64,000 bases of DNA from Halalkalibacter suaedae (lineage in GTDB: Bacteria > Bacillota > Bacilli > Bacillales > Bacillaceae_D), in assembly GCF_017939705.1 (NCBI RefSeq), contig NZ_JAGKSQ010000001.1, positions 62,001 through 126,000 of the forward strand, in the 5' to 3' direction. The notes below the pieces were generated by a model, which was not told the DNA's origin, did no database searches, and saw only the letters and a list, made by a program, of their open reading frames with translations. The translations under genes were made by a program, and so were the position numbers. Shown here piece by piece: positions 15,846 through 17,978 of this stretch (its first letter is position 1; every line of letters starts with the position of its first letter).

Positions 15846-16367
15846 TTATTTATTCATTTCTTCAAATTGTTCATGGATTAAGTTAGAGGTTGCCTCTATT
15901 TGCTCGCCCCATAAATCATTTTGTTGGCTGTAGATATACCTGCCATCTTTATCCAAAATACTGACTCCTCTATACGAGAGATCATCATTTCTCATTTCAA
16001 CATGTTCGAGCACTTCATATGTCTCATCTGTTAAAAAGGTTAGATTAAATCCTCCTGCATCCTTTAAGGCTTTAGAATTTTCAGGCGTGTCCACACTAAT
16101 TGCATAAATATCTGCATCAAGATCATCAAATAAATCCAAGTTCTCTTGCAACTGAACTAGTTGCTTCTGACAAAGTCCTCAGCCTACCTCTGTAAAATGA
16201 AATAAAATCGTTGCACGTTCCTTGTTAGTGAGTGTTACCTCTTCACCTTGCTCATTAACTACGACTAAGTCCCCTTCTGGAGCTTCTCCTTGTGTTGAAG
16301 AACCACACCCAGCTAATAATAGAAGAGAAAGGATAGCAAATACCCATAATTGTGTTGATCGTCGCAT
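15846..16367 (-). CDS. Putative selenocysteine-containing thioredoxin-fold lipoprotein (UGA = Sec63)
   Basis: Read with the in-frame UGA at 16181-16179 as selenocysteine, this is a 173-residue protein. It starts at an ATG behind GAGGTGG. The signal peptide ends LLLLAGC, so Cys21 would be lipidated and the protein faces outward. A redoxin (AhpC/TSA-like) domain follows: TILFHFTEVG-U-GLCQKQL, then YAISVDTPEN, FLTDETYEV and the late strand SILDKDGRYIY. The Sec and Cys66 form UxxC, where relatives would have CxxC. The two halves are in one frame with no other lesion, and the second half has no ribosome site of its own. It follows sco1 by 80 bases. Alternatives: a nonsense mutation or a sequencing error of a Cys codon. 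Confidence 0.65.
16148..16181 (-). promoter_or_regulatory. Candidate bacterial SECIS element with its UGA
   Basis: The UGA is 16181-16179. After 14 bases there is a hairpin: GCAACU, loop AGUUC, AGUUGC (16164-16148), a perfect 6-bp stem. The loop begins 20 bases after the UGA and has a G as its second base. These are the features described for bacterial SECIS elements that recruit SelB. It lies inside the coding sequence. It was found by eye; folding energy was not calculated. Confidence 0.55.
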
Positions 16368-16447
16368 ATTACCACCTCATTTCTTAAATCTTACAATAGC
16401 AATTAGTTTAATCTTCTAATCAGTATATCGTCAACTAAATTGCATGC

Positions 16448-17041
16448 TTACTCAATTGTTGCTTTTAAATCTGCAATAATGTCTTCTTGGTTAGCTTGAA
16501 GACCATTATATTTTCTAACAACCTTACCACTAGGATCAACTAAAAAGAAGCTTGTTGGATGAATAATATCTTCTTCACCTGGGTCTTGAACAACGGTCGC
16601 AAAGCTTTCCTTCGCAAATTCAGATATTTCATCGGAATTATAACCTGATAAAAAATGCCAAGAATTCAAGTCAGCACCTACATTGGTTCCATATGACTGC
16701 AATACTTCAGGTGAGTCCGTTTCTGGATCAACGGTAAAAGAAACAAATGTTACTGGTATCTCGTCGTTAAGCATGGCTGTTTGTAGTCTTTGCATATTTG
16801 GCGTCATCGTTGGGCAAACCGTTGGACATGAAGTGAAGATCATGTTTGCAAGCCAATACTGACCTTCAAGCTGCTCTGTTCCATAACCTTCGCCAGCTTC
16901 GTTAGTAAATTCAAATGGAGCGACCTGAATATCAGCACTTGAAATATCAAATTCTGACGACTTACCATTTCCAAGCTCATACACCCATCCACAGCCACTT
17001 AACACGAGAATGAGCAATAATGTTGCTACTATTTTTCTCAT
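16448..17041 (-). CDS. SCO1/SenC family copper-delivery lipoprotein
   Basis: A 197-residue lipoprotein (signal ending LVLSGC) with a thioredoxin-like SCO domain. It has the copper-binding CPTVC motif after MIFTS and the distal histidine in DIIHPTSFFLVDPSG. SCO proteins deliver copper to, or reduce the thiols of, the CuA site of cytochrome c oxidase. The start is the ATG at 17041 behind AAGGATGA; the open frame extends 15 codons further into the ctaG end without a ribosome site. It follows ctaG by 19 bases. Confidence 0.92.
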   Translation of the reverse strand: MRKIVATLLLILVLSGCGWVYELGNGKSSEFDISSADIQVAPFEFTNEAGEGYGTEQLEGQYWLANMIFTSCPTVCPTMTPNMQRLQTAMLNDEIPVTFVSFTVDPETDSPEVLQSYGTNVGADLNSWHFLSGYNSDEISEFAKESFATVVQDPGEEDIIHPTSFFLVDPSGKVVRKYNGLQANQEDIIADLKATIE

Positions 17042-17060
17042 AAAATCATCCTTATCTTTT

Positions 17061-17978
17061 CTATGGTCTAACAGTTGGAATATCACTAATTGTCAATGGG
17101 CCATCTTGTTGCTTTTCTTTCTTTAACCATTGTTTAAACACATAGCCAATCGCGATACCATATACAAGTTCTTGCATAACCTTCATCATAACTCCGGCTA
17201 GTTGCTGATCCATTCTCGCATCTAAAAAGGCAAAAGAACTTGGACCAGAAAAGAGGGTCATCGGAACATCAACACCACTCGGCAAACAATAAGACATTAC
17301 CGTTGCCCATATTGCAGGATCGGTGTAGGTACTATACATCGCTGAACCTGCAAAAATAATTAATGCACATGCTGGAGTAATTAATAGCCCATTCGCAAAA
17401 ATATAACCGATTCTCTTTAAATCTGACAACGGTGAAAGATTAGGAAGAGGCGCAATCATATGCCACCACATTAACAATGACGCAGCTAATAACAAGTATT
17501 CGTACAAGCTATGCAACACCGTTGCTTGCATTAAGGTGTCAAACATAAAAGGAAGATGGTAAAATGAAAAAAGCCCATTAAATAAAAAGAGTGCTACGAT
17601 TGGACTCCAAACAAATTTAAATATGTTCCCAAGTAATCGATTTTCATATTTATTAACGATCGCTTGTAAAAACCATGCTGGTAAGCCCAGCAAAATAAGA
17701 GGTGTTGCTACAAAGTATGCGAAAACCATCTGCAGCATATGGAAGCTAATCATCAAGTGACCAGCGATATATAGCGGACTTCCCCATCCTAAGTAAAGGG
17801 CGAGAAGTCCAAAGAGAAAGTAGATCTTTTGTCTATTTTTAACAGGTGTAGAACCACTAAAGCGATTCCGCCATTTTGTTATAAGTAAAAAGTAAACCAC
17901 AGCAACAACAATTAAACCAAGCAATAACTCCGGTGTCCATAATGCACGAAAGCCAAAGTTTTCATTAAGTTGCTCCAC
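17061..17978 (-). CDS. ctaG: Cytochrome c oxidase assembly factor CtaG (caa3 type)
   Basis: A 305-residue polytopic membrane protein with about seven hydrophobic segments and conserved histidines near helix ends (GHLMISFHMLQM, YHLPFMFD, LHSLYEY, WWHMIAPLPNLSPL). It belongs to the Bacillus CtaG family, needed for a functional caa3 oxidase. Start is GTG behind AAAGGAGG. First gene of a likely three-gene unit with sco1 and the UGA-containing redoxin. Confidence 0.92.
   Translation of the reverse strand: MEQLNENFGFRALWTPELLLGLIVVAVVYFLLITKWRNRFSGSTPVKNRQKIYFLFGLLALYLGWGSPLYIAGHLMISFHMLQMVFAYFVATPLILLGLPAWFLQAIVNKYENRLLGNIFKFVWSPIVALFLFNGLFSFYHLPFMFDTLMQATVLHSLYEYLLLAASLLMWWHMIAPLPNLSPLSDLKRIGYIFANGLLITPACALIIFAGSAMYSTYTDPAIWATVMSYCLPSGVDVPMTLFSGPSSFAFLDARMDQQLAGVMMKVMQELVYGIAIGYVFKQWLKKEKQQDGPLTISDIPTVRP

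Follow-up and report, generated by a model that had tools for sequence, protein, structure and literature searches.

The minus strand of the stretch analysed here (the window, 64,000 nucleotides of the Halalkalibacter suaedae genome, coordinates counted from its first letter) carries a gene that we read, with high confidence from sequence comparison and leaving its substrate aside, as encoding a redox lipoprotein decoded with selenocysteine (Sec). Re-reading the sequence bore out the frame put forward in the original prediction: an ATG at 16367-16365, 62 codons, a TGA at 16181-16179, 110 further codons and a TAA ending at 15846. The predicted product contains a single U, at position 63, in FHFTEVG-U-GLCQKQL. 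The gene and its signals, all on the minus strand, are as follows.

15846..16367, minus: gene for a predicted Sec-containing, lipid-anchored redoxin of the AhpC-TSA/peroxiredoxin fold, 173 amino acids, with U63 and C66
16179..16181, minus: in-frame UGA, read as selenocysteine U63 from the frame and from homologue alignments
16148..16164, minus: predicted bacterial selenocysteine insertion sequence (SECIS) hairpin, GCAACU-AGUUC-AGUUGC, its stem starting 14 nt and its loop 20 nt after the UGA
16305..16316, minus: lipobox L18-A19-G20-C21 (LLAGC), by sequence pattern
16372..16378, minus: ribosome-binding-like GAGGTGG ahead of the ATG, read from the sequence, with the same stretch in homologues
15828-15815, minus: terminator-like hairpin and T tail, 17 nt beyond the stop, by pattern match

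Pfam matches to AhpC-TSA (1.1e-16) and Redoxin (4e-11) span the UGA, and the N-terminus is a signal peptide with a lipobox cysteine. The lipobox pattern occurs in 84 of 88 distinct homologues and its cysteine in 85 of 88. Lipidation is likely; copies L118, L141 and L148 are without this cysteine. A terminator had been proposed straight after the UAA. A hairpin with a T tail does lie 17 nt on, but we treat it as a pattern match only, because 2 such patterns were found in the stretch against 1.5 expected in shuffles. No Rfam family matched within the window at gathering scores.

The first line of evidence is the conservation of the UGA itself. We read 110 homologous loci, made up of 30 aligned and 80 named loci in overlapping sets and comprising 88 distinct 57-base stretches, and an in-frame UGA followed by xxC was present in all 110. 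In the 30 aligned loci the UGA falls in one column and UxxC is invariant. The named set came from a pattern-based scan of 84,980 named species genomes; the best 80 of its 152 relatives have exactly one UGA each, always at the same codon, which is therefore common to independent genomes. Named carriers include Halalkalibacter, Alkalihalophilus pseudofirmus OF4, Alteribacillus, Fictibacillus, Cytobacillus, Neobacillus, Mesobacillus, Planococcus and Salinibacillus. One strain, Cytobacillus depressus BZ1, has two copies (L109 and L141), and a record titled Pseudomonas sp. ISL-84 (L130) holds this Bacillales gene, a title that may be wrong.

Broader searches gave the same picture. Among 120 relatives, 50 genomes had a match. 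In 35 of them a match carried a UGA (G107, G109 and 33 that reached E 6.6e-25 or better), while the other matches, at E 3.3e-8 and weaker, were stop-free. A search of 397 genomes sampled evenly across the order returned, at E 1e-15, 85 rows from 78 genomes, of which 80 rows (76 genomes) have a TGA; the five TGA-free rows are a decayed copy in genome G546 and four rows at 60-62 bits. The 80 rows take in a more distant set at 66-97 bits, whose members belong to families f25 and f28 and have a TGA in each row. In 398 genomes of the class, all 9 rows above 130 bits (8 genomes) have a TGA, the next row, at 58 bits, is stop-free, and a few rows weaker still carry one (G131, G219, G295, G387). Across 299 genomes of the phylum, at E 1e-14, the only match was in the host genome itself. 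The family thus appears, as far as these sequences go, mainly in its own order. Because these whole-genome alignment searches scored only 9 to 11 candidates in each genome, they are not exhaustive and may have passed over weak relatives.

Homologues with cysteine at the UGA position had been expected. None was seen in the 110 loci, and the searches found no cysteine form, the stop-free rows of the order and class samples (62 bits or less) lying outside the reading. That cysteine never replaces the UGA in these loci argues no less strongly against a chance nonsense mutation. A true stop in a dead gene would fit the usual meaning of UGA, the occurrence of that one UGA only, and the one decayed copy elsewhere. 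It is contradicted by the shared codon in 110 of 110 loci and by purifying selection that is alike on both sides of the UGA, with a median dN/dS of 0.23 after it and 0.31 before it (88 and 82 usable pairs, respectively, of 435). The covarying hairpin and the co-occurrence with selA described below tell against it too, and we give a pseudogene next to no chance, in line with the earlier view that a random mutation was unlikely to have hit this codon. The decayed copy (L155, G546:C37:366800-369300) is followed by a cupredoxin-like lipoprotein gene that by eye resembles L090, and its genome still has selA.

The second line of evidence is a hairpin 14 bases after the UGA with the consensus GCARCU-NGUNN-AGYUGC. 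In 30 sequences, 99.4% of stem cells pair and 13 cells are changed on both sides. The covariation score was reached by 0 of 500 shuffles, and the pair-count and type-count measures by 16 and 17 of 500; pairing was lost when the stem partners were slid, and RNAalifold recovered the same helix unaided. In the 88 distinct sequences 523 of 528 stem cells pair. The stem spans a glutamine and a leucine codon, and these show synonymous compensatory changes: CAA/TTG in 48 sequences, CAG/CTG in 35, CAG/TTG (a G-U pair) in 5 and the mismatched CAA/CTG in 0. The protein tree yields 9 independent pairs, on supported branches, whose stem glutamine codons differ, and in these the leucine codon differs the same way in an average of 6.8, the opposite way in 0.0 and is unchanged in 2.2 (median p 0.016, range 0.016-0.063).

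The loop contains G then U in 88 of 88 sequences and lies 20 nt after the UGA, and 85 of 88 have a minimum free energy (MFE), computed over 48 nt, of -7.5 or lower. The published bacterial SECIS model, in the portion of the source available, calls for a 3-9 nt loop, a 4-16 bp stem, a G in the first two loop positions, 16-37 nt spacing and an MFE of -7.5 or lower (PMC13188914), and the predicted redoxin hairpin fits it. Several observations weigh on the other side. Single-sequence folding of the window copy was no better than shuffles (z 0.28), so the hairpin signal came from comparison only; the window copy's 6-bp hairpin alone amounts to -5.3 kcal/mol, and 77 of the 88 sequences, rather than all of them, form the 5-bp core in their MFE structure. 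The tree-test control, the glutamine codon just before the stem, showed no tie, and with just 4 independent pairs it could not have reached 0.05; it is also a weak control in that its raw counts are uneven (CAA/CTG 26, CAG/TTG 20, CAA/TTG 19, CAG/CTG 6).

The third line of evidence is the decoding machinery, which a search of the 4.32 Mb, 30-contig host genome recovered in full. One contig (C29) carries tRNA-Sec, selB, a glycosyltransferase, a phosphonate/selenate-type ABC transporter, selD and selA. The tRNA-Sec, with anticodon TCA, scores 60.2 bits, above the Rfam gathering score, and selA (562 bits, cut-off 268), selB (359, cut-off 242) and selD (414, cut-off 125) all exceed their NCBIfam cut-offs. 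The selD gene itself (L003:3578-4630, minus) has an in-frame UGA near its N-terminus, in STKAG-U-GCK, and a SECIS-like hairpin. Between selB and selD (L012:10941-14522), the glycosyltransferase shows likeness, below cut-off in each case, to NF038229 (246 bits) and to SenB (72 bits). The transporter is of the PhnDEC type, and its binding protein also has a match, below cut-off at 166 bits, to the putative selenate family TIGR04553.

The distribution of the gene follows that of the machinery. In the order sample, selA is over cut-off in 181 of 397 genomes, and all 76 genomes with a UGA-bearing relative have it; none of the 216 genomes that lack selA has such a relative (76/0/105/216, Fisher 2e-31). 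The Fisher and shuffle values ignore kinship, which tempers this support. Among the 120 relatives, selA occurs in 59 and accompanies the UGA-bearing homologue in 35 of 35, and within the host's own family of 41 genomes, 19 have both selA and the redoxin gene and 22 have neither. The original prediction regarded selenoproteins as uncommon in Bacillaceae, but at the level of the order these selA counts show that Sec machinery is not rare. In the available parts of the literature, 3 selenoproteins were given for Bacillales in 2006 (PMC1794560), Bacillales are mentioned for selenouridine transfer (PMC5029168), and selA is noted in two Aneurinibacillus species (PMC7996765).

The same distribution bears on whether the UGA might be read as Trp or Cys through a suppressor or a reassigned code, under which the frame would be just as open. 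A UGA-bearing relative is absent from all selA-lacking genomes of the order sample, TGG, TGC or TGT occupies the position in 0 of the 110 loci read, and selD and three other redoxins of the genome have UGA at redox-type positions; such readthrough is very improbable. Taken together with the covarying hairpin, the UGA in every locus, the sel genes and the co-occurrence with selA support the candidate selenoprotein reading, and Sec is very likely inserted at U63, as judged from these comparisons.

We had considered that the redoxin and selD might be the sole Sec clients of the genome, because family co-occurrence and a formate dehydrogenase homologue without UGA suggested it (the homologue is below its family cut-off). 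This was rejected on finding three more AhpC-TSA genes with an in-frame UGA. One (L156, G000:C22:524626-525018, minus) is a peroxiredoxin with the UGA in TPVU, best matched in NCBIfam by PrxU at 83 bits, below cut-off; the simple bacterial SECIS rules are not satisfied there. The second (L157, G000:C22:414565-414903, minus) is ResA-like, with WASWURC, NCBIfam matches below cut-off and a SECIS-like hairpin with a GGG loop. The third (L158, G000:C28:68627-68923, plus) is a SelL-related redoxin at 81.6 bits (cut-off 120), with PGUPVC and a SECIS-like hairpin.

The predicted fold is that of a peroxiredoxin, with PrxQ/Bcp and AhpE among the best fold matches; TlpA/ResA chains are not among the 50 matches listed, which does not exclude a likeness to them. 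Aligned with peroxiredoxins, U63 falls on the Thr/Ser of TxxC, C66 on the peroxidatic cysteine and R133 on an arginine, and T59 and R133 are invariant in 88 of 88 sequences. Apart from the lipid-bearing cysteine, U63 and C66, no Cys/Sec residue of the mature protein is conserved; thiol chemistry is likely. The earlier proposal that the UGA replaces the catalytic cysteine, giving UxxC for CxxC, thus holds for the motif but not in its simple form for the residue, and the classical TxxC active site is lacking in that Sec stands at the Thr/Ser position.

In NCBIfam the window protein reaches no cut-off, and the best E-value of any of 30 family members is 2.8e-10. Two fellow (seleno)protein redoxins, the SelL-related NF040769 (21.3 bits, cut-off 120) and the TUGYCR redoxin NF053656 (23 bits, cut-off 100), score far too low. 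Closer in description are the Prx-like thiol:disulfide oxidoreductase selenoproteins, tabulated in the parts available of three papers with PF00578 and UxxC/UxxU (PMC1794560, PMC9312934, PMC13188914), and listed in one of them for Geobacter, Syntrophus and Desulfotalea, labelled anaerobic, with a distant form in Syntrophomonas (PMC1794560). The AhpC-TSA domain and UxxC are shared with the redoxin, whereas the window protein is a Bacillales lipoprotein for which no cysteine form was found; this comparison is by description. PrxQ/Bcp and AhpE differ from it in that it has Sec for the Thr/Ser of TxxC and a lipid anchor. No report of this lipoprotein family was found in a search that ran outside subscription literature and protein databases, over partly accessible sources. 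While Prx-like UxxC selenoproteins are already known, the lipid-anchored Bacillales lineage would be new and, on its sequences, apparently Sec-only.

Clues to the function come from the neighbourhood, where two genes lie upstream of the redoxin gene.

16448..17086, minus: SCO1/SenC gene (PF02630, 3.6e-31), start as listed for the open reading frame; translation probably begins at an internal ATG
17061..17978, minus: ctaG, caa3 oxidase assembly factor (TIGR02737, 392 bits, cut-off 279)

Among the best 80 named loci, ctaG and sco1 are upstream in 20 and argC is downstream in 21; in one of the 80 (L087) the upstream side is cut by a contig end. For the other 59 loci the immediate neighbours were listed and only those on the same strand Pfam-scanned. 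Nine of their 32 same-strand upstream neighbours are cytochrome c (Neobacillus and kin) and 9 of their 32 same-strand downstream neighbours are cupredoxins (Fictibacillus), so that oxidase assembly, cytochrome c or cupredoxin genes adjoin the redoxin in 38 of 80 loci. Oxidase assembly factors, cytochrome c and cupredoxins all act outside the cytoplasm, and their metal sites depend on reduced thiols or other ligands. In Bradyrhizobium, according to the accessible part of the source, TlpA reduces ScoI and CoxB (PMC6696091). These metal sites and that precedent make a reductant role our leading guess, with an extracytoplasmic peroxidase close behind.

As a TlpA-like reductant, the protein would keep cysteines of SCO1, CoxB or cytochrome c/cupredoxin proteins reduced for copper or haem loading, a possibility we rate as tentative. 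The ctaG-sco1-redoxin order, the cytochrome c and cupredoxin neighbours at other loci, the U-x-x-C pair and the TlpA-ScoI-CoxB precedent favour it, and the protein shares with TlpA/ResA an extracytoplasmic, membrane-anchored redox pair linked to oxidase or cytochrome c assembly. It differs in being peroxiredoxin-like by predicted fold and profile scores, ResA and TlpA models giving 19.2 and 20 bits against cut-offs of 170 and 230. Other points count against a respiratory role more generally. By the same-strand scan, 41 of 80 named loci (L087 apart) have no such immediate neighbour, and the contexts seen in Fictibacillus and in Neobacillus are each almost restricted to one genus, so that the 38 loci may represent three events. 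In addition, the sco1 locus was read in 11 of the 22 selA-lacking family members, comparing open reading frames of at least 60 codons with reference proteins and listing those of at least 90; 10 keep the ctaG-sco1-argC order with the redoxin gene gone, so that the gene is not needed for that pathway there, and in the eleventh another gene follows sco1. A cysteine redoxin substituting for the Sec form was not seen at any of these 11 loci. The sco1 matches in G011, G014, G016, G017 and G028 show an internal TGA, perhaps upstream of the true start, since the query frame seems N-terminally extended.

As an extracytoplasmic selenoperoxidase, by comparison, the protein would use U63 or C66 to attack peroxides as in PrxQ, the partner residue resolving the product as a selenenylsulfide, and would protect the respiratory chain rather than serve metal-site assembly. 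The peroxiredoxin fold, the alignment of C66 with the peroxidatic cysteine and of R133 with the peroxiredoxin arginine, the invariance of T59 and R133, and a second peroxiredoxin of this genome that has an in-frame UGA are consistent with this. PxxxTxxC is the peroxiredoxin active-site motif, and it is not kept here, Sec taking the place of Thr/Ser and Thr that of Pro; the oxidase assembly, cytochrome c and cupredoxin neighbours also fit less well. We consider the peroxidase slightly less probable than the reductant.

As for the Sec-decoded redox lipoprotein itself, SelB and tRNA-Sec would insert selenocysteine at UGA 16181-16179, guided there by the hairpin just downstream. The product would be exported and lipid-anchored through Cys21, its PrxQ/Bcp-like domain facing outside, and the U63-x-x-C66 pair would alternate between the selenol/thiol form and a selenenylsulfide bond. 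Working at the outer side of the membrane, the protein would most likely carry out thiol-disulfide (or selenol-peroxide) chemistry; that its clients are copper and cytochrome proteins of respiration, as the action of TlpA on ScoI and CoxB would suggest by analogy, is a guess that falls short of even chances. A still bolder view, which we regard as unlikely, is of a Bacillales family that works only with Sec, supplying selenol reducing power at the membrane's outer side to the copper or haem sites of respiratory oxidases, so that selenium would tune respiration; the redoxin would be lost, not swapped to cysteine, wherever the Sec machinery goes.

A gene interrupted by a UGA is readily annotated as two pieces or as a pseudogene, and since no NCBIfam model scores the window protein above cut-off, other genomes may carry this redoxin unrecognised. 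The gene points to selenium being put to redox use in Bacillales, here in a genome with a formate dehydrogenase homologue that has no UGA. A natural comparison is offered by close relatives that do or do not use Sec, since this gene is what sets them apart at a locus that is otherwise preserved, and a Sec-only family would help explain why selenocysteine persists where cysteine could serve.
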